This document shows positions 4,170 to 42,345 of a stretch of 42,345 nucleotides of DNA, piece by piece. Location of the stretch: NCBI GenBank assembly GCA_947066955.1, contig CAMTAF010000018.1, positions 1 to 42,345 on the forward strand, in the 5' to 3' direction. How positions within the stretch are numbered: position 1 is the stretch's first letter; each line of letters begins with the position of its first letter. The notes under the pieces were generated by a model. The model searched no databases. It was not told the DNA's origin and saw only the letters and a list, made by a program, of their open reading frames with translations. Origin of the DNA: an uncultured Hungatella sp. (GTDB lineage Bacteria; Bacillota; Clostridia; Lachnospirales; Lachnospiraceae). The translations under genes and the position numbers were made by a program.

Positions 4170-5072
4170 TTAAGCACCAATCTGTTCTTTCTCCAGGTTC
4201 CTGATTTCATCAATCGAAAGCCGAGGAACATATTCTTTAATTTCCTCTATAGAAAATTTCCCTGATTTCAGCATTTTAATTGCTGTCTCAATATCTTCCT
4301 CTTTTACTACCTTTTTTACCACCTTCTCAGTCTCTTTTCTTACTTTCTCTGTCGCCTCGCCTACAATCTTACTGATCTCCGGCTCCATGATCTCCAATAA
4401 TGCCTGACACATGCTCTCATCTCCTCTCAACTCTTCTACAATCTTTTGATTCGCACGGACACTCACTTCCAAAACTGCATCCGCTAACGCTCTCTCCTGC
4501 TCCTTCGTCAGCCCTTCGATCTGTTCCAGAAGTGCTTTCAGTTGCTGCTTTTTCAATTTATCCGACAAAGCCTTCAGCCACCTGTGGGATTCCTCTTCCA
4601 GTTCTTTAGACACTATAATCTGTGTGGGAAACAGAACTTGATCCAATACATAATAAATCCCCTTATACGGCCTCTCTGTTCTGATACCATGCTCTGCAAA
4701 GTATTGGAACAGCCCCTTTGGTTTTGTATCCCTGACTATGGAAACGGTGATATCCTCCGCCTTCCTCTCATCTGCTGTCTCTCCATAAGCCTTATATAAA
4801 CTGGCATAAGCCCCTGACTTATAAAACGTGTCTGCGTTCAGATGGTCTCCTGGTGATTTATACTCCAATATATTAAATTTCCGGAATATTTTTCCTATCT
4901 CATTCGCAATCTGAACATCTTTGTCCTTTTTGATAACCAGGAGATCGATCTCCAGTGGTTTTGTATTCAGATTGTATTCCCGCTCATAGATCAAATCATT
5001 CCTGTTGGCTGATAATTCCAGATCCATGGCGGCCACAAATCCGGAATGCCACTGTATCTTTACTTCATTCAT
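4170..5072 (-). CDS. PD-(D/E)XK nuclease-fold protein, Rpn-like, of unknown role
   Basis: A 300-residue protein. Residues about 25-75 carry the PD-(D/E)XK elements: an early Glu in I-Y-E-R-E, P-L-E-I-D-L-L-V with the metal Asp, and N-I-L-E-Y-K-S-P-G-D with the E-x-K. The A-D-T-F-Y-K-S-G-A-Y-A segment follows as in Rpn-related proteins. The C-terminal 120 residues are a charged, Glu/Lys-rich coiled coil ending in I-E-E-I-K-E-Y-V. It has its own promoter and terminator. A second, heavily deleted copy of its 5' half lies at 1114-1258. Function not established. Confidence 0.7.
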   Translation of the reverse strand: MNEVKIQWHSGFVAAMDLELSANRNDLIYEREYNLNTKPLEIDLLVIKKDKDVQIANEIGKIFRKFNILEYKSPGDHLNADTFYKSGAYASLYKAYGETADERKAEDITVSIVRDTKPKGLFQYFAEHGIRTERPYKGIYYVLDQVLFPTQIIVSKELEEESHRWLKALSDKLKKQQLKALLEQIEGLTKEQERALADAVLEVSVRANQKIVEELRGDESMCQALLEIMEPEISKIVGEATEKVRKETEKVVKKVVKEEDIETAIKMLKSGKFSIEEIKEYVPRLSIDEIRNLEKEQIGA

Positions 5073-5097
5073 CCGCTCAGTCCTTCCCTCTTTCTAC

Positions 5098-5125
5098 ATT
5101 ATATCACATCAGCATGATTTTACAA
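5098..5125 (-). promoter_or_regulatory. promoter of the 4.2-5.1 kb nuclease gene
   Basis: Minus strand TTGTAA (5125-5120), 16-base spacer, TATAAT (5103-5098) with an extended TG one base upstream of the -10. The ATG at 5072 follows after about 25 bases. Confidence 0.6.
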
Positions 5126-5190
5126 CCAACAGATCCGCAGGGTCCTGGCCAGCTTTTACTGGCAAACTGCCTCTTGATATCCGCGCGCAC

Positions 5191-5230
5191 AAAAAAGCAG
5201 CTCCAAGGCGCATATCACCTTAGAGCTGCT
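5191..5230 (-). terminator. terminator of the greA-lysS operon
   Basis: A 13-bp stem (5218-5230 with 5196-5208, one mismatch) with a 9-base loop is followed on the minus strand by six T. It lies about 175 bases past the lysS stop. The other side is T/A-rich too, so it may work in both directions. The same hairpin is copied at 1186-1220 in the scar. Confidence 0.75.
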
Positions 5231-5309
5231 TTATAAAAACACAAAATCATGTCTGACAGCCAAACTCATCTGCCATAAATCTACATATCCCTGCATAACT
5301 GTTGCATTA

Positions 5310-5342
5310 TTTGGCGTAAAATTGGCGTAAATTGGCGTAAAC
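5310..5342. repeat. three 10-11-bp direct repeats beside lysS, candidate integrase arm sites
   Basis: TTGGCGTAA occurs at 5311, 5322 and 5332. The layout mirrors the TTGGTACA array at 2790-2822 but with a different core word, suggesting two different integrases. It lies between lysS and its terminator, a plausible boundary of the decayed island. Nothing else is seen in the 5231-5403 stretch. Confidence 0.45.
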
Positions 5343-5403
5343 TACAGATATTCTTATTTTCTAAACTCTGAAAATGCCGATTCTTAGCGGATTTTCTGCA
5401 CAT

Positions 5404-6912
5404 TTACTTATCGGTGTTCCTCATCGTCGGGAACAACAACACATCCCGAATAGCCGGCGAGTTAGTCAAAAGCATCACCAGCCTGTCGATCCCATACCCG
5501 ATCCCTCCTGTAGGCGGCATGCCGATCTCCAAAGCATTCATAAAATCCTCGTCCGTAGTATTGGCTTCCTCGTCTCCCGCGGCCAGAGCCGCCTCCTGGG
5601 CCTTAAACCGCTCTCTCTGATCAATGGGATCATTGAGCTCTGAGTAGGCATTGCACATCTCCCTGGCGTAGATAAACAGCTCGAACCTCTCCACCAGCTC
5701 CGGCTTATCCGGCTTTCTCTTGGTCAGGGGGGATACCTCCACAGGGTGGTCCATGATAAAGGTTGGCTGGATCAGATGCTCCTCCACAAATTCCTCGAAA
5801 AACAGATTGATAATATCGCCTCTTGTGTGGCGGTTCTCATAGTGGACTCCCTTCTCGTCGGCCAGCTTCTTGACCTCCTCCGTGGTCCGGATCTCCTCGA
5901 AATCAATGCCTGTATACTTTTTCACAGCATCGATCATGGTCAGACGCTCAAAAGGCTTTCCAAGATCAATCTCCACGTCCGCGTAGGGAATCACCGTGGT
6001 ACCGCACACTTCCTGAGCGACATGGCGGAACATGTTCTCTGTCAGATCCATCATGCCGTGGTAGTCCGTGTATGCCTGGTAAAGTTCCATCAGGGTGAAC
6101 TCCGGATTGTGTCTTGTGTCCAGCCCCTCGTTTCGGAAAACCCGGCCGATCTCGTAGACTCTCTCCATGCCGCCTACGATCAGCCTCTTTAAGTACAGCT
6201 CCAGGGAGATTCTCAGCTTCACATCTTCATCCAGAGCATTATAGTGGGTCTCGAAAGGTCTTGCCGCGGCGCCGCCGGCATTGCTCACCAGCATGGGGGT
6301 CTCCACCTCCAGGAATCCTAAGTCATCCAGATATCTCCTGATGCAGCTGATAATCTTGGAGCGCATGACGAAGGTCTTCCTTACCTCCTCGTTCATGATC
6401 AGATCCGTGTAGCGCTGGCGGTAACGCATATCCATGTTGGTAAGCCCGTGATACTTCTCGGGAAGGACCTGAAGGCTTTTGGACAGCAGGGTCACGGAAG
6501 TGGCATGGATGGAGATCTCTCCGGTCTTTGTGGTAAATACGGTTCCGGTGAGGCCGATGATATCTCCGATATCCAGCTTTTTAAACTCCTTGTAGGACTC
6601 CTCCCCGATGCTGTCCCTGGCCACGTAAGACTGGATATTGCCCTTTAGGTCCTGGACATTGCAGAAAGAAGCTTTTCCCATAACGCGTTTGGACATCATG
6701 CGTCCTGCCAGGGATACTTCTTTTCCTTCCCACAGGGCATAGTCCTCCTTCACGTCTGTGCTGTGTACGGTCACTTCGTATTTGGTAATCTGAAACGGAT
6801 CCTTTCCAGCTTCCTGAAGCTGCGCCAGCTTCTCGCGGCGCACCTTAAGCAGCTTATTCAGATCCTCCTGTGTCTGGGCCTGGCCCTGGTTCTGCTCTGC
6901 CACTTTTTCCAC
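5404..6912 (-). CDS. lysS: lysyl-tRNA synthetase, class II
   Basis: 502 residues, the usual length. It charges tRNA-Lys with lysine in the cytoplasm. An N-terminal OB-fold anticodon-binding domain (about residues 55-165, with [11 protein letters not shown]) precedes the class II catalytic core. Motif 2 is [14 protein letters not shown] and motif 3 is [13 protein letters not shown] near the C-terminus. It is co-transcribed behind greA (32-base gap) and ends at the terminator about 175 bases downstream. Confidence 0.97.
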
Positions 6913-36194: not shown

Positions 36195-37541
36195 TCACTT
36201 TCTCGTTTTTTTAAGAAATCCCCGTATCTTTGCCATATTTCTCTCAAGAATCACCTTGATCGATGCCTCCCCCCTGAACTGTGACGGCCCCTGGGCGCGC
36301 TTCACGTAAGTGAGAAAATTTCCCGGCCTCTCCCCGGCCCCCTTTACAGAATACCTCATGTACAAATTTTTCATGCTGATATGTTTTCCGCTTTCCGTGT
36401 ATCCCCCGCTCCTGGCGATGGTCTTTGCCTTCCTCCTCATTCTCTGATAATATTTAGAAATTGTTTTGTCCCGCAGTCTCACCTTGTCTCCGTCAAATGT
36501 AAACCCAAGAAAATTCAGATAACGGTTTGAACAGTCCGCCCCCTCATGAATCTCTTTGCCGCAGTTTTCGATCCGCTTTCCGCAAAAATGGTAATACTGG
36601 GTCTTAACCGGCTCCAGTTCAAGGCCCGGACAGCCCGGTCCGTTAAACATTTCGCTTACCCGTGTCAGCGCCTCTACAGCCGCTTCCCGGTCAATCCGGG
36701 GCAGCACAATAATGAAATCATCACTGTAGCGCATATACATTCCCCTGTACACTGACACAAAATCGTGGATCGATTTGTCTATCTCCAGCATGTACACATT
36801 GGCCAGCACTCCGCTCACAGGCGAGCCCTGGGGAATCCCGCAATCTCTATTTTTCCGAATATAAAATCCCTTTTCCTTTAATTCCTTTGGAGACAAGACC
36901 CGTTCCCTGGCATTTAACTCCCGCCTTCCCTTCCCGTTGTTCTCCAGGTCATAGATTTCTAAAAGATCTGTCAGCTCAACATAACTATATCTTGTAATAT
37001 TCTTAAACACCGCATAGTGGTCCGCCGGCAGCCTGTCTATATGGAGCAGGCGGCACCACTGCCTTTTCAGATACCTGTGGTCAAGACGCTCAAAAAACTT
37101 TGTAAAATCACCGATCATAATATAGCAGTCGCCGCTTTCACGGATAAAACCCATCGCTCTCCTGGCAAAATCAATATTGCTCTGTTTGTTTAAATTAGTC
37201 CGATAGGCAACCGCCACATCATGAATTCCCAGCCAGTCACATTCCTCATTGTAACGCTCATTAAGCAAGAAATTATAAAGCTGAAAAATGCAGCGATCCA
37301 TATGGGACGCATAACAGATGTCCCTGTGTTTTTCCTTCATCCCGCCCGTCTTCGCCGAATACTTGCTCATATTTTTGGTGTAATGGATAAATGGATAGAA
37401 TCCATGTCTGCGGATATTTTCAGGATCCGAAATGTAATCCCAACATTTTGTGATGTCCGTGCGGTAATCAAAATGAGCATAATAACGCCGGCTTTTTTTG
37501 ATGGCCTTCTCCGAATTCCGCCAGGTTTCTATGTCTGACAT
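36195..37541 (-). CDS. UG/Abi-class reverse transcriptase, DRT2-like
   Basis: 448 residues from the ATG at 37541 (GGGAGG about 9 bases upstream). RT motifs in order: motif A G-D-F-T-K-F-F near 144-150, motif B G-I-P-Q-G-S-P-V-S-G near 235-244, motif C Y-S-D-D at 272-275, and motif D/E region N-F-L-G-F-T-F near 375. The N-terminal block (F-Y-P-F-I-H-Y, then Y-A-S-H-M-D-R-C-I-F) and the A-x-R-T loop are those of defence-associated RTs I recall as DRT2 (UG2). There is no maturase X or HNH domain, arguing against a group II intron, and no msr-msd retron pair is seen. A promoter and ~310-nt structured leader lie upstream. Class assignment is from memory and not tested. Confidence 0.8.
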   Translation of the reverse strand: MSDIETWRNSEKAIKKSRRYYAHFDYRTDITKCWDYISDPENIRRHGFYPFIHYTKNMSKYSAKTGGMKEKHRDICYASHMDRCIFQLYNFLLNERYNEECDWLGIHDVAVAYRTNLNKQSNIDFARRAMGFIRESGDCYIMIGDFTKFFERLDHRYLKRQWCRLLHIDRLPADHYAVFKNITRYSYVELTDLLEIYDLENNGKGRRELNARERVLSPKELKEKGFYIRKNRDCGIPQGSPVSGVLANVYMLEIDKSIHDFVSVYRGMYMRYSDDFIIVLPRIDREAAVEALTRVSEMFNGPGCPGLELEPVKTQYYHFCGKRIENCGKEIHEGADCSNRYLNFLGFTFDGDKVRLRDKTISKYYQRMRRKAKTIARSGGYTESGKHISMKNLYMRYSVKGAGERPGNFLTYVKRAQGPSQFRGEASIKVILERNMAKIRGFLKKTRK

Positions 37542-37566
37542 GATTTGCTTTCCTCCCAAATGCAGA

Positions 37567-37608
37567 TACCCGCTGGTACGGAGGATAGCATTCCTAAACC
37601 AGCGGGTA
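37567..37608 (-). other. 11-bp stem-loop just upstream of the RT ribosome site
   Basis: TACCCGCTGGT (37608-37598) pairs perfectly with ACCAGCGGGTA (37577-37567). The loop contains a second small stem AGGA/TCCT. The RT Shine-Dalgarno lies about 13 bases downstream, so the structure could mark the 3' end of an ncRNA or affect RT translation. Confidence 0.7.
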
Positions 37609-37640
37609 CAGACCCAAACGTGGTATTTAATTTTCACCCT

Positions 37641-37827
37641 TCAGGCGCTCTGTGTTAAATAACCAGCTATCCAACAAATGCAATACTCAATCGTGATACA
37701 ATCAAGCACATCATATCTGTCAACGCAAGCGTGGCAGTAATCATTCTGGTGATCCAGTTCTGTCAAAGTAAATTTGAAACCGATCTGGTCATCGAAATTT
37801 CACTGGAGGTGTTGACAGCAATGACAT
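37641..37827 (-). pseudogene. coding-like frame inside the RT leader
   Basis: A 52-codon stretch without stop (37799-37644), in the same phase as the RT, reads N-F-D-D-Q-I-G-F-K-F and later C-H-A-C-V-D-R-Y-D and I-E-Y-C-I-C-W. An ATG at 37827 preceded by AAGGGA joins it if one C (37794) is removed, giving about 61 codons and ending at a TGA (37643-37641). It may be a decayed small Cys-rich gene, or a protein-like frame carried by a template RNA. No homologue recognised. Confidence 0.4.
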
Positions 37828-37857
37828 TCCCTTATACCGAATGTGTAAGGTAACATT

Positions 37858-37886
37858 AGTATAGCAATTTACTGCGGGGATGTCAA
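37858..37886 (-). promoter_or_regulatory. consensus promoter of the RT leader and RT gene
   Basis: Minus strand TTGACA (37886-37881), 17-base spacer, TATACT (37863-37858). It starts 7 bases after the stop of the ATPase gene, so the leader RNA and the RT form an independent transcription unit. Confidence 0.8.
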
Positions 37887-37892
37887 TTTATA

Positions 37893-39653
37893 TTACAGCT
37901 TCCCGCAGTATTTATCAAGGTTTCTCAAAAAATCATTTACATTGATAAACTGTACCATGACCTCCCCTTCCACAGCCAAGTCATACTCTTTCTTAAATCT
38001 CTCCCTTGCCTCCCCATCCCTCGCCTTGTCAGCCAGATCTCTGTATAGCTGCCTGGGCCACATGGGTTCAATTTTAGACTCTCCGGTATAGATCACATGG
38101 GGAACGCCAGGCGCCTTGCTGCTCAACAGCCATTTGCACTGCTCAGGCACAACCTTGTTGGAATGCTTGATCTCAAAAGACCCTGTGCCAGGTATCACCA
38201 GATCAATCTCATATGCTTCTGACTTAAACTTATAATATGGAATTCTCATCTTGTGCAGATCCATATAGATCATTGCCTCTATTAAACCGCCGGACGCACT
38301 GTTTATTAAAATCTCCCTCAATTTATCCGCGCCATAGGAAATATCGGTTCCACTCACTAAATCCACATAGTTGAGCATGAGGGTGAGTATCGTCTCACAA
38401 GTATATCCCCAGCGCATTATAATGGGGAACAAAAATTCACTCTTGATCTCCGGACACGTCATAAAGCAGCCCATTCTCTCCAATATAGCTTTCAGTTCCT
38501 TTGCCAGAGAAGGCTCAAAAAAGTCGTAATCATAGATCTGTAAATCCAATCTCAAGTTATCGAACAGCCTCTCCTTAAATACATCAATATCATCAAATTC
38601 CGTATGCTGAGACAACAGCTCCGCTAAGTTTCCTATATCATCAGAAGTCAGATCACTTTTCAAAATCCCTATGGTTAACTCCTGAGCATATCTCTGCATC
38701 CATTTGAAGATCATAACCCGCAGTTGATTTCTGTCATTCCAATATAAATCCTGAAGCTTTGGGCACACGGAACTTAAATCCCCATGTTTAAAGCAGTTAA
38801 ACAGATTGTCAACAATAGAAGTGCCGATATACTCGACTCCTTCCTGTTTATACAGCTCCAGGTCAAACTTATGCAGTCTCTCATAATCCGCAGAACTCCG
38901 CAGCAAACCTCCGCAGGCAATGTAATCATCAACTGTCTGATCTCCATATAAATAATCAAATTCTTTAAATGAGATATAGGAGGTCATCACTTTTTGACAT
39001 CTTCCATATAACACGCTGTCAAACGCAGAAATAAAAACCGCAGAATGCGTACCTGCCACAACAATATGCGGGGAAAATCTTCCCTCTGCCGCCTGGATGA
39101 GAAAGTTCATATTTGATTCACAAAATGTGATCTCATCAATAAAAAGATACTGAATACCCATTTTACTCAGCAACCGCATAGCTTTATGAACTTCTAAATG
39201 GGAAATGCCCTGCTCTCTTAAAGTTATAAAAGCAATCTCGTTCAAAGGTACGCCTGAGTATATAAGATTCTGAACTTCATGCCGCATTGCCACCGTCTTC
39301 CCTGTGCGGCGGGTTCCAAACAACACTGTAAAGCTATCCGGATAGCCAGTTATGTTTTTGTGCAGGGAATCTACCAAATAGCGCTTTCTCCAAGAGCTAT
39401 ATCGGGTTATCTCGCGTAACAGATCCAGCCCTAAATCGATAGTTATAGTGAGGGAATCACCTGGGAAACTGGCGGTCAGCTTCTCGTAGGCTTCTGGGGA
39501 ACTGTAGGCTCCTACCAGAAATTCCGGATTGACTATTTCTCGTAAATGATCTAACACCCAGGGGAGAGGTTTGGTTAGGATTTTATCTTTAATCTGTAAT
39601 GAATACTCTGGTACCTGGGTATTGGGCGGGTTTATGGATTTAAGAAGTTGCAT
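37893..39653 (-). CDS. AAA+ ATPase with DUF4143-like C-terminal nuclease fold
   Basis: 586 residues; AAAGGAG 8 bases before the ATG. Walker A is G-T-R-R-T-G-K-T near 112-120, Walker B I-Q-Y-L-F-I-D-E-I-T-F near 168-178 and a sensor-like V-A-G-T-H-S. A helical middle part follows. Near the C-terminus E-I-D-L-V-I-P-G-T-G-S-F-E-I-K supplies the D...ExK of a PD-(D/E)XK-type fold. Proteins of this plan are common, multi-copy and functionally obscure in Clostridia. Its last third and downstream leader exist as a second, degraded copy at 40428-40687. It may form a unit with the upstream YefM-YoeB genes. Confidence 0.8.
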   Translation of the reverse strand: MQLLKSINPPNTQVPEYSLQIKDKILTKPLPWVLDHLREIVNPEFLVGAYSSPEAYEKLTASFPGDSLTITIDLGLDLLREITRYSSWRKRYLVDSLHKNITGYPDSFTVLFGTRRTGKTVAMRHEVQNLIYSGVPLNEIAFITLREQGISHLEVHKAMRLLSKMGIQYLFIDEITFCESNMNFLIQAAEGRFSPHIVVAGTHSAVFISAFDSVLYGRCQKVMTSYISFKEFDYLYGDQTVDDYIACGGLLRSSADYERLHKFDLELYKQEGVEYIGTSIVDNLFNCFKHGDLSSVCPKLQDLYWNDRNQLRVMIFKWMQRYAQELTIGILKSDLTSDDIGNLAELLSQHTEFDDIDVFKERLFDNLRLDLQIYDYDFFEPSLAKELKAILERMGCFMTCPEIKSEFLFPIIMRWGYTCETILTLMLNYVDLVSGTDISYGADKLREILINSASGGLIEAMIYMDLHKMRIPYYKFKSEAYEIDLVIPGTGSFEIKHSNKVVPEQCKWLLSSKAPGVPHVIYTGESKIEPMWPRQLYRDLADKARDGEARERFKKEYDLAVEGEVMVQFINVNDFLRNLDKYCGKL

Positions 39654-39668
39654 GGGGGAAAACTCCTT

Positions 39669-39806
39669 TCATTGATGCTGATGTTCTTTTTCTGACAATC
39701 TCATCAGCATAGACGGATATTTAATCTCCTCGTTATTCAATACCGGAACCATATACCCGCACACCATCAACCGCAGTAAAAAATCTCTATTTTTATTAAC
39801 CATCAT
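39669..39806 (-). CDS. 45-codon ORF between the toxin and ATPase genes
   Basis: ATG at 39806 overlaps the last codons of the YoeB gene, with AAAGGA about 5 bases upstream. It reads M-M-V-N-K-N-R-D-F-L-L-R-L and ends K-E-H-Q-H-Q, stopping 15 bases before the ATPase start. The C-G-Y-M-V-P-V-L-N-N-E-E segment is not recognised. Coupling to both neighbours suggests it is translated; the shortness leaves doubt. Confidence 0.4.
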   Translation of the reverse strand: MMVNKNRDFLLRLMVCGYMVPVLNNEEIKYPSMLMRLSEKEHQHQ

Positions 39807-40059
39807 AATGTCCTTTGCAAGATTTAACAATTATCTGATTATCTGAAACTTCATAAACTAAACGATTCGCTTCATCTATCCGTCTGCTAAATGACCCCGA
39901 CTTTCCATATTTCAATGGTTCAGGCTTCCCTATTCCTTGCAATGCTCCATCTCGTTCTATGCTTTGCAGCAATTGATTTATCTTCCTCACTATCTTTTTA
40001 TCTTGTGTCTGCCAATAGAGATATTCACTCCAGCCATCTTCCGCAAAAGTGATTTTCAT
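39796..40059 (-). CDS. yoeB: Txe/YoeB-family ribosome-dependent mRNA interferase
   Basis: 87 residues, usual length. Typical YoeB features: Y-L-Y-W-Q near the start, G-I-G-K-P-E-P-L-K in the middle, S-R-R-I-D-E-A-N-R-L-V-Y and C-K-G-H-Y at the end, covering the catalytic Glu, Arg and His. The usual His in the R-R-I-x-x-x-H-R-L-V-Y block is Asn here. It lies 3 bases behind the YefM gene. Expected to cleave mRNA in the ribosomal A site unless bound by YefM. Confidence 0.88.
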   Translation of the reverse strand: MKITFAEDGWSEYLYWQTQDKKIVRKINQLLQSIERDGALQGIGKPEPLKYGKSGSFSRRIDEANRLVYEVSDNQIIVKSCKGHYDG

Positions 40060-40062
40060 AGA

Positions 40063-40320
40063 TTAGTCCTCCATTGCCAAAAGCTCATCTATGGTTTTCG
40101 TTACTACCTGTCCATTTTTAATCTGTTCATCTGCCCTATTCAATTTTTCCAAATATTCTGCGTTCTTCTTAGCTTTTGCTAATTCGTTATATTTTGCTTC
40201 AGAAATTATAACAACATTTTTATTTTCTTTACGAGATACAATCACTGGTTCACCATTAAATGCGATATCAAAATATTTTTTTATATTTGCCCTTACATCC
40301 ATCTGTTTTGTTGCGATCAT
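40063..40320 (-). CDS. yefM: YefM/Phd-family antitoxin
   Basis: 85 residues from the ATG at 40320 (AGAGG about 8 bases upstream; the upstream in-frame extension crosses the promoter and is excluded). M-I-A-T-K-Q-M-D-V-R-A-N-I-K-K-Y-F opens the Phd/YefM fold; P-V-I-V-S-R-K-E-N-K-N-V-V-I-I-S is the core strand region; the acidic C-terminal helix binds YoeB. The gene and its promoter form a standard autoregulated module. Confidence 0.88.
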   Translation of the reverse strand: MIATKQMDVRANIKKYFDIAFNGEPVIVSRKENKNVVIISEAKYNELAKAKKNAEYLEKLNRADEQIKNGQVVTKTIDELLAMED

Positions 40321-40335
40321 AGCATACCTCTTTCC

Positions 40336-40364
40336 GTACTTAAAACCGTACTGTTTATTGTACT
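40336..40364 (-). promoter_or_regulatory. 12-bp iterated operator candidate of yefM-yoeB
   Basis: AGTAC on the minus strand occurs three times at an exact 12-bp period (40364, 40352, 40340), directly downstream of the -10 box. This spacing puts the repeats about one helical turn apart, as expected for cooperative binding by the YefM-YoeB complex. Function inferred. Confidence 0.45.
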
Positions 40365-40368
40365 TTAT

Positions 40369-40397
40369 ATTATATGCTCCTATTGTACACAAGTCAA
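40369..40397 (-). promoter_or_regulatory. promoter of yefM-yoeB
   Basis: Minus strand TTGACT (40397-40392), 17-base spacer, TATAAT (40374-40369). It probably also drives the small ORF and the ATPase gene. Confidence 0.8.
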
Positions 40398-40427
40398 TAA
40401 AATTATTAAAGATACTTTAGTAAGTCA

Positions 40428-40687
40428 ACCAATGGGTACAGACCCAAACACTGTATTCAATTTTCACCCTCCCTGCACTCTGTGTTAACCCCGTCCCTCG
40501 CCCTGTCAGCCAAATCTCTGTATAACTGCCTGAGCTACATGGGCTCAACTTTAGACTCTCCGTATAGATCACATAGGGAACGCCCGATGCCTTACTGCTC
40601 AACAGCCATTTGCACTGCTCAGGCACAATCTTGTTGGAATGCTTGATTTCAAAAAACCCTGTGCCAGGTATCAGCAGATCAATCTCA
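40428..40687 (-). pseudogene. deleted second copy of the ATPase 3' part joined to the RT leader
   Basis: Bases 40489-40687 match 38012-38212 (C-terminal region of the ATPase; P-E-Q-C-K-W-L-L-S-S-K-A is shared), with small indels that break the frame. Bases 40428-40488 match 37599-37657 (the 3' half of the RT leader). The intervening 354 bases of the first copy, including the ATPase end and the RT promoter, are missing. Nothing beyond the leader piece matches the RT. Confidence 0.8.
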
Positions 40688-40778: not shown

Positions 40779-42345
40779 CTAGGCCTCCATGATGATCCCA
40801 TCACCTTCCGGATCCCTTGGCTCCAGCATCACATCATATCTTCCAAATCCACTTTCTCTGTTTGAAGTCAAAATATACCAATCAGCCAGATCCACCATCA
40901 GCCCCAGCACGAATCCATGGTAAAATCTCTCCGGCTCCTGTGGAAGGATTTTTTTCCAGTATCAAAATAGCTGAAGGTTGCCATAGCTACCTGGTTCATA
41001 TAGATATTCATAGCCTTGATATCCCCCAGAAGAAGTGCCCTGATAAAATCATTGTATACAGATAAAGCGCCGGAAAACCATTTTCTTACCATATTGCGGA
41101 ACATAAGCCTTACCTCAAAATTGGTCAAAGCTAATTGGTATTCTTGTTTCCAATCCCCAAAATCTGTGGTGTATGTCTTCAAATTTTTCACTTTCAGGTA
41201 CCCGCTGGCTAACAGAAGGCTCCATACTGCCTGCTCGTCATTGTATAATTGATCATAGACAATCTGTTCATCTAATTCCGCTGTGATAGTCTCTCCGGTC
41301 AGCAGAGATTGAAAAGTAGTTTTCAGGTCTTTGCTCCCTTTACGGACCAGTTTATCCACCAGACTGTTGGAGCTGGAGTTGGCCCAGTAAGGAGCAAACT
41401 GTTTTTTGTCCAAATAATTGAGAATGGACCAGGGATTGTAGATATCCGTCTGATTCCCAAAGGTGAACCCGTCATACCAGTTTTTCACCTCCCCCTTCTG
41501 GTCAGACAGACCATACTCATCCAGCGCGACGAACACCTCCTCTTCCGTAAAACCAAAACAATCCTCATATTTTTTAGAGGTTGTAGTCACTACCTCAAGG
41601 TTGTTCAAGTCTGAGAAGATGGATTCTTTCCCAAGGGATGCCTCCGGTGTACTCACTCTTGTGATGCCCGATAAAGCGGGGCACGCTGTCCCAGTCATGA
41701 CGGCCCGCTCCAGATATGGGTTGGTCTTAAAAGTGGAGTAAAAATAGGTTTCTGGTAAAAGAGACCAAATCATGCCAGTATCCATTGACATACGCTTCCT
41801 GCATAGGTGTATCGTACTCATCTAACAGAATAATCACCTTTTTGCCATAATACTTTGACAGGTACAAAGAGAGCTGATGAATCGCCATGGTAGCTGTCGC
41901 GTCATCCATCTCCTCAGACACCAGCTCAAAAAATCGTCTCCCCCGCTCCCTGAGCACAGGGCTGTCCAGCAAAAACTCATATTCCGAATACAGATTCGAT
42001 AGGATCTGGCAGATCTTTCTCCGGGCGTTCTCATAGTCGGTTTCTTTTATATTGGCGAAAGATAAATTAATAACCGGATAGGTTCCCTGCAGGTCTCGAA
42101 AGTCTTCCTTCTCCCAAATCTTAAGTCCCTCAAATAGGTCTTCTCTGTCTTTATATTGAACGGAAAAGAAGGCCTCGATCATACTCACATTCAGGGTCTT
42201 CCCAAACCGTCGTGGCCGGGTGATCAGGGTGACCACATCTTTCTCGTTCCACCATTTTTCAATGAACTGTGTCTTATCAATATAAAAGCAATGTTCCTTT
42301 CGGATAACTTCAAAATCCTGATGTCCGATTCCCACGTTCTTTTTC
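40779..42345 (-). pseudogene. AAA-ATPase/PD-(D/E)XK protein, frameshifted, partial at the right edge
   Basis: The 5' end lies beyond the window. The N-terminal part has F-Y-I-D-K-T-Q-F-I-E, a Walker A-like R-P-R-R-F-G-K-T, and Walker B I-I-L-L-D-E-Y-D-T-P (AAA-ATPase_like family). A run of five A on the plus strand at 41740-41744 carries an extra base; with four the frame continues as N-L-F-Y-S-T-F-K-T-N. At 40949-40955 seven T stand where eight would restore G-K-K-I-L-P-Q-E-P-E-R-F-Y-H-G-F and then S-N-R-E-S-G-F-G-R-Y-D-V-M-L-E-P, the PD-(D/E)XK_9 domain. That domain is then cut short by a stop at 40779-40781 just where the usual I-x-E-F-K should be. Not functional as read. Confidence 0.8.

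Follow-up and report, generated by a model that had tools for sequence, protein, structure and literature searches.

A DRT2-like reverse transcriptase locus of Bacillota and the predicted template RNA of a putative concatemeric neo gene

A locus encoding a reverse transcriptase (RT) and a structured RNA, located in a 42,345-nucleotide stretch of DNA from an uncultured Hungatella sp. of the Lachnospiraceae (the window), very probably forms an abortive-infection antiphage system of the DRT2 type, in which an RNA template is copied into a concatemeric neo gene. The predicted template is 138 nt long and lies in the leader upstream of the RT gene; its concatemer carries a promoter across each repeat junction and a reading frame without end. 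The original prediction, made from the sequence of the window, had suggested a Gram-positive relative of DRT2, and this reading is supported and was largely right.

Reverse transcriptase and neighbouring genes

The RT gene, identified from its open reading frame (ORF), profile HMMs, and sequence and fold matches, occupies positions 36195–37541 of the minus strand, including the stop codon. It encodes a protein of 448 residues with the YSDD-type motif MRYSDDF. The list of ORFs gives a longer version with a GTG start at 37637 (480 residues); the ATG at 37541, where the homologues begin to align, was chosen as the start. RVT_1 is the sole Pfam domain found in the protein; the Pfam search detected neither a maturase nor an HNH domain, which bears out the earlier description of an RT frame with Y-S-D-D that lacks both. 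In the 4.2-Mb genome a single RT match was found at E up to 0.001, and the 3′-scaffold model of the RNA described below likewise matched once.

Profile, sequence, and modelled fold all support the placement of the RT in the DRT2/UG2 group. The PADLOC profile Drt2 (PDLC03757) matches the protein with 473 bits (E 3e-142), compared with 71 bits for RT_UG39, the best PADLOC family other than Drt2, and 60 bits for the Drt9 HMM. The best solved relative by sequence is a DRT2 RT, PDB 9c0i (E=1e-58). The same structure is the best Foldseek match of the AF2 model of the RT (pLDDT 86.3), with TM 0.74/0.78 and E=3.6e-32, whereas the runner-up, a DRT9 RT, reaches E=6.6e-12. The NCBIfam Drt2 equivalog NF041746 scores 370.1 bits, under its cut-off of 390. 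The cut-off governs naming, and because of this score the RT is considered a divergent member of DRT2.

In a 48-row RT tree, which was calculated by a quick method with midpoint rooting and has several long branches flagged, the window belongs to a set of six rows together with the related loci L002, L003, L004, L007, and L009 (SH-aLRT 100). All the sisters in this set are Bacillota MAGs. A branch with a support of 98 splits the Bacillota-type rows from 15 rows including those from E. coli, Photorhabdus, and a viral contig. Rows L027, L017, L028, L035, L031, L045, L044, and L057 were left out of the tree. The RT of the window shares 33–37% identity with four aligned RTs of the ACA type, named after the end motif of their templates.

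The promoter of the RT unit is adjoined by the ORF of an ATPase (37893–39653). No tblastn match to the ATPase was found in loci L002–L057 less L032, several of which have short flanks. It was therefore rejected as a conserved partner of the RT and is taken for a mere neighbour. A remnant of a second ATPase–DRT2 copy is located at 40427–40687 of the minus strand. Its segment 40489–40687 is 91% identical to the 3′ end of the ATPase gene (38012–38211), and the directly joined segment 40427–40488 is 84% identical to the 3′ scaffold of the ncRNA (37597–37658); the intervening promoter, handle, and template are missing from this copy. A pair of genes for a YoeB-like toxin and a Phd/YefM-like antitoxin (Pfam) is positioned between the ATPase and the remnant, at 39796–40392 of the minus strand. 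An AAA-ATPase-like gene at 40898–42335 of the minus strand, has PF09820 in 41727–42335; the overlapping ORF 40898–41821, in another frame, looks like its continuation, perhaps owing to a frameshift.

Promoter and leader RNA

The promoter of the ncRNA–RT unit is positioned directly past the end of the ATPase ORF at 37893, as had been described from the sequence. It consists of a −35 box TTGACA (37881–37886) and a −10 box TATACT (37858–37863) on the minus strand, separated by 17 nt, and the −10 region is aligned in the homologues. The leader RNA is provisionally assigned to 37542–37851 of the minus strand, approximately 310 nt from a predicted start near 37851, placed from the −10 box, to the ATG of the RT gene. 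According to the ORF list, no frame of at least 60 residues lies wholly within it. The RNA is situated between the shared promoter and the Shine-Dalgarno sequence of the RT gene.

Alignments indicate that the leader is a structured, pseudoknotted RNA just upstream of the RT. Homologous leaders have in common the promoter region, a 5′ hairpin, a tower, and a pseudoknot with compensatory changes; the terms handle, tower, buttress, and pseudoknot are adopted from the cryo-EM study of KpDRT2, as given in the available text of PMC12039810. The pairing was quantified in alignment A2, in which 15 leaders are aligned from the ncRNA −10 box through the tower. Helix 1, the 5′ handle hairpin CCTTA..TAAGG (37830–37850, minus strand, as are all segments of the RNA given here), is 100% paired, and three of its five pairs change on both sides. 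Helix 2 is the pseudoknot between the strands GGATAGC (37666–37672) and GCTATCC (37583–37589); it is 97.1% paired, with changes on both sides in five of seven pairs. Helix 3, the tower stem, is formed by the 5′ strand 37599–37608 and the 3′ strand 37567–37576, and is 98.0% paired, with nine of ten pairs changed on both sides. Over the 22 pairs of the three helices 98.2% of cells are paired, a percentage that benefits from taking the structure from the window row. Slid structures are 37–49% paired. Both sides have changed in 17 of the 22 pairs, compared with a mean of 8.1 in shuffles and with 2–5 in slid structures.

RNAalifold, run without a supplied structure, recovered the tower and the handle from A2. 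From A1, in which 17 rows of the 3′ part are aligned, it recovered the tower and a 5-bp stem beside the pseudoknot strand, between 37661–37665 and 37621–37625, of which four of the five pairs are formed in the window. This short stem is taken for a putative counterpart of the KpDRT2 buttress. The R1 covariance model matches the window with 127 bits over 37558–37704, the window being one of its source sequences. When the covariance model built from A1 was searched against 50 sources (E up to 1), 26 of them gave a single match each, namely the 17 that had supplied the sequences for building and nine others, of which four are Paenibacillus loci. The E. coli and Photorhabdus loci were not matched by this model.

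The non-coding leader of about 310 nt with several stems, noticed in the window alone, is therefore shared by homologous loci and has compensatory changes. An RT outside UG2 and other ncRNA-templated classes, or leaders of close homologues without conserved structure or length, had been named as findings that would speak against a DRT2-like system. Neither was observed, because the RT groups with DRT2/UG2 and the homologous leaders conserve their structure with strong covariation.

Relationship to the RT-6 and RT-12 RNA families

No Rfam family matched the leader at the gathering thresholds. Under the threshold, RT-6 RNA (RF03027) matches 37778–37852 of the minus strand (35.7 bits, E=3e-6, gathering score 46.7), which corresponds to the first 75 nt of the window RNA. 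The proposal of a template RNA in the original prediction is supported, but the RNA is not wholly undescribed. The model is 75 nt long and comprises no more than the handle and the beginning of the template. Matches to RT-6 (E up to 0.1) were found in 10 of 12 relatives searched, seven of which (L002, L003, L005, L033, L034, L036, and L040) attain the gathering score; the other two relatives, L043 and L049, have no RT-6 match. In another set of 10 loci, L011 and L041 have RT-6 matches under the gathering score, and L019, L029, L051, and L052 match RT-12 (RF03016) with 77–87 bits. RT-12 has no match in the window. It covers the 3′ part of these four ACA-type DRT2 RNAs, where the 3′ scaffold is positioned in the window RNA.

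Both families presumably originate from a survey in which RNAs associated with RTs were sought by comparative genomics. The papers available to the literature search contain no mention of RT-6 RNA, RT-12 RNA, RT-10 RNA, RF03027, or RF03016. Two RNA families whose Rfam lines state no function would thus gain a likely one.

Predicted template and neo gene of the window

According to the available text of PMC12039810, the sequence between two ACA motifs of the KpDRT2 RNA, when reverse-complemented and concatenated, has a repeat length that is a multiple of three, one frame free of stop codons, and, spanning each junction, a sigma70 promoter whose boxes are 17 bp apart. The repeat of KpDRT2 is 120 nt long, and that of most of 42 homologues is 117 nt. 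ACA as the jump motif gave no candidate in the window, whereas ATTG fits. ATTG(1), the 5′ motif, is located inside the template at 37819–37822, and ATTG(2), the 3′ motif, is just outside it at 37681–37684; the run that they share is ATTGC. This direct repeat on the junction diagonal has P 0.018 in the window by shuffling, a value to be read with the fact that loci were chosen partly for a shared motif. The predicted template between the motifs is 37685–37822 of the minus strand, and neo is on the plus strand of the concatemer. The −35 box TTGACA (37812–37817, plus strand) meets the −10 box TACAAT (37697–37702, plus strand) only after concatenation, when the two are 17 nt apart across the repeat junction. 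The leader of the window thus fits the logic of a cryptic neo gene in its length of 138 nt, junction promoter, and open frame, which extends the earlier suggestion of an ncRNA template.

By analogy with KpDRT2, from which RNA binding, cDNA synthesis, the jump, the trigger, transcription, toxicity, and defence are all carried over, the RT would bind the pseudoknotted RNA transcribed just upstream of its gene and, upon infection, copy the template over and over. After ATTG(1) had been copied, the end of the cDNA (..CAAT) would realign on ATTG(2) and synthesis would restart. Repeated jumping would result in a tandem 138-nt cDNA, every junction of which would set TTGACA 17 bp from TACAAT. The cDNA, once double-stranded, would be transcribed into an mRNA with a single stop-free frame, and its product Neo, a repetitive hydrophobic protein with 46 residues per repeat, would arrest growth.

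The predicted concatemer of 138-nt repeats contains one endless stop-free frame with a hydrophobic repeat of 46 residues, and its endless peptide is LNRDTIKHIISVNASVAVIILVIQFCQSKFETDLVIEISLEVLTAI. By itself the open frame of the window is weak evidence, because about a third of its shuffled templates (34.5%) also contain one. All 147 of the 147 multiple-of-three junction variants tested in the window and five other loci are open, and therefore the open frame cannot fix the exact junction. The GRAVY value of the predicted Neo is 1.00, which none of 150 shuffled open frames reached. An AF2 prediction of a single Neo repeat, based on 14 divergent rows, is tentatively one long helix with pLDDT 79.6 and pTM 0.40.

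A Shine-Dalgarno sequence of neo, GGAGGTG, is present at 37805–37811 of the plus strand. The predicted junction codon 9 nt past it is ATA in the window and ATG in L002, L003, L004, and L009, and the neo frame of the window contains no ATG, GTG, or TTG with a Shine-Dalgarno sequence. The linear plus strand of the window has an ATG at that distance from GGAGGTG, because C precedes ATTG(1) and T precedes ATTG(2). Which of these two bases stands at the junction is decided by the motif copy that is read, and the true junction codon is therefore uncertain.

It is possible, although rather unlikely, that the clade functions as described and the window contains a decaying copy, in which Neo has no start codon and the effector does not work while the RT and the RNA persist. 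The ATA codon past the Shine-Dalgarno sequence would agree with such decay, as would the largely deleted second copy at 40427–40687, the sister locus L007 that has no open frame, and the broken RT frame of L009. However, the RT of the window is full length and has YSDD, the RNA helices are intact, the template retains a length divisible by three, an open frame, and a hydrophobic predicted product, and the ATA itself is subject to the ambiguity of the base before the two ATTG motifs. The interpretation of the window as a DRT2-type system with its own neo template is preferred here.

Neo logic in related loci

The related loci were drawn from draft genomes and MAGs. The templates of L002, L003, L004, and L009 are 141, 153, 159, and 153 nt long, and have the same promoter and frame as the window. 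Fifteen loci of the ATTG/ATT type, including the window, fit the neo logic, with template lengths of 126–165 nt in the relatives, but the close sister L007 (RT identity 69%) does not. Its 166-nt template has no open frame, and shifting the junction by up to 10 nt at either end does not create one. L111 is the same sequence retrieved again. A 129-nt open candidate in the wider leader of L007/L111 was treated as a chance occurrence because it overlies the 3′ scaffold and the RT gene. In L009 the RT frame is broken around 5001–6334 (193-residue ORF, separate tblastn pieces), through either a MAG error or decay, and the predicted neo template is intact.

The leaders were searched without reference to length or reading frame for both promoter boxes, set 17 nt apart over the junction and with no more than one mismatch in total, and for a 4-mer, or else a 3-mer, common to the two template ends. 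The repeat length is set by the two promoter boxes alone, and the test of length and frame is therefore independent of the motif. Candidates were found in 32 of 48 leaders, and 30 of the 32 best candidates are multiples of three and stop-free, L007 and L028 being the failures; this test was not blind, since the loci had been inspected beforehand and only those fetched later were fresh. The 16 leaders without a candidate include all four Paenibacillus loci and most of the alphaproteobacterial ones. The best candidate of L040 in this test, 105 nt long, was set aside for a 141-nt ATT candidate, and that of L034 requires two promoter mismatches. The leaders of L020–L025 and L030, which are of the alphaproteobacterial type with one viral beside them, have no candidate when one mismatch to the sigma70 boxes is allowed, which might reflect promoters of another kind; some of them have weaker candidates with other motifs.

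Background frequencies were determined for 40 non-redundant leaders, with a shared 3-mer and at most one mismatch, in dinucleotide shuffles and in other windows of the same loci. The near-duplicates L031 (whose leader is identical to that of L004), L035, L045, L044, L013, L014, L030, and L039 and the leaderless L027 were left out. The real leaders gave 27 candidates, of which 25 pass, against 341 candidates and 22 passes in 4000 shuffles. In 5699 other windows, some of which may overlap leaders with a misjudged gene start, 366 candidates were found and 86 pass. When no mismatch is allowed, 17 of the 40 leaders have a candidate and all of them pass, compared with 1 of 4000 shuffles and 4 of 5699 other windows. 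The counts of loci are not independent because the loci are related. Eight of nine loci fetched later pass, and L065 is without a candidate; L063 (leader of L029), L111 (leader of L007), and L064 (leader too short) had been removed from this set. In the candidate from the leader of L113 the two ends share 8 nt, TGTTGCAC, and the template measures 87 nt, less than in any other of the later loci that passed. Among 43 loci with weak RT matches taken as non-DRT2 (L067–L109, 36–57 bits), one candidate was found and it is not open; these loci are a weak control because their gene starts were extrapolated. The positive controls, E. coli L051 and L052, Photorhabdus L019, and viral L029, gave ACA and 117 nt.

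These frequencies bear on the reading of the leader as merely an attenuator-like cis-regulatory 5′ untranslated region of the RT gene, with the neo arithmetic a coincidence of base composition. The location of the RNA between promoter and RT Shine-Dalgarno sequence would suit such a role, and so would the openness of a third of the shuffled window templates. Nevertheless, 25 of 40 real leaders pass, as opposed to 22 of 4000 dinucleotide-preserving shuffles, and the later-fetched loci pass nearly throughout, which makes this explanation extremely improbable.

The sequences expected of a translated gene are found in most of the relatives examined. A Shine-Dalgarno sequence of at least 5 nt, plausibly spaced from an ATG in the stop-free frame, is present in 20 of 26 templates, the window being among the other six. 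None of the 52 closed frames contains such a pair, and 73 of 1232 shuffled open frames do. For 20 of the 26 templates, the hydrophobicity of the predicted Neo is reached by no more than 5% of shuffled frames, a comparison that for L042 is based on three frames only; the hydrophobicity is not significant in the other six (L008, L029, L038, L047, L049, and L050). The pN/pS ratio pooled over five pairs is 0.51 in the neo frame, and 0.82 and 0.52 in the shifted frames, values that speak neither for nor against neo.

Class 2 UG RTs vary in their products, which are poly-dA for DRT9 and tandem repeats for DRT10 in the available texts of PMC12483538 and PMC12632851. The repetitive cDNA itself might therefore be the effector here, as in DRT9 or possibly DRT10, and the open frame a by-product. 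Such a DNA effector is improbable, as it leaves unexplained the multiple-of-three lengths, the 17-bp junction promoter, and the in-frame Shine-Dalgarno sequence and ATG in many loci. A template encoding Neo remains the preferred reading.

End motifs of the templates

The two ends of each candidate template carry one and the same motif, which varies by clade. ATTG or ATT is found in the 15 loci that include the window, GTAT/GTA in L049, L039, L038, and L050, AGTAT in L015, TATTA in L043, TATT in L041, TTAA in L047, and TCGT/CGT in L026 and L016. ACA occurs in L019, L029, L051, and L052, the sole ACA rows among the labelled rows of the tree. The longest shared run at the ends has a mean of 4.0, compared with 2.05 in shuffles, a test that is biased because loci entered the set partly for having a shared motif. 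Ends that match within a locus and differ between clades are just what a realigning cDNA end would require; the model of the jump comes from Tang et al. and Wilkinson et al., as far as the available texts present it.

The assembly of a hidden neo gene probably reaches beyond ACA-type DRT2 to Bacillota and some other UG2 loci. The end motifs would change together while the 17-bp promoter and the frame are kept, consistent with a telomerase-like realignment; RT-6 and RT-12 would be pieces of neo RNAs, and Neo would be readable by the promoter-junction rule. The rule reads a Neo in many divergent loci and predicts exact junctions, and the pairs of end motifs in these loci, which look co-varied, form a natural series. 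In its available text, the preprint of Tang et al. (PMC11100668) states that ncRNAs are predictable in more divergent DRT2 clades and calls the annotation of Neo there “more challenging”, suggesting alternative mechanisms. No report of neo in Bacillota was found in the available texts of the DRT2/neo literature, including PMC12596737 and PMC13174585.

Comparison with known systems

DRT9 (UG28) resembles the locus of the window in having a Class 2 UG RT and an upstream ncRNA, but differs from it in the profile and fold scores given above (60 versus 473 bits; E=6.6e-12 versus 3.6e-32). In DRT9 a U tract serves as the template for poly-dA (PMC12483538, available text). A DRT9-like poly-U template was rejected for the window, because inspection of the aligned RNAs by eye found no U tract at the template end.

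KpDRT2, which was compared as a PDB chain and via papers, differs from the window in its end motif (ACA rather than ATTG or ATTGC) and template length (120 rather than 138 nt). The Neo of the window has no obvious similarity to that of KpDRT2 in an informal comparison. Unlike in KpDRT2, the neo Shine-Dalgarno sequence is upstream of the −35 box in the subclade of the window, and the window has ATA at the expected start of Neo. Nevertheless, the two systems have in common a UG2 RT, an ncRNA just upstream of it with a 5′ handle, tower, and pseudoknot, and a template between short direct repeats with a TTGACA-17-TATAAT-like junction promoter, a stop-free frame of a length divisible by three, and a hydrophobic Neo. 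The locus is therefore regarded as a variant of DRT2, and the ACA-type trait is not treated as defining the family.
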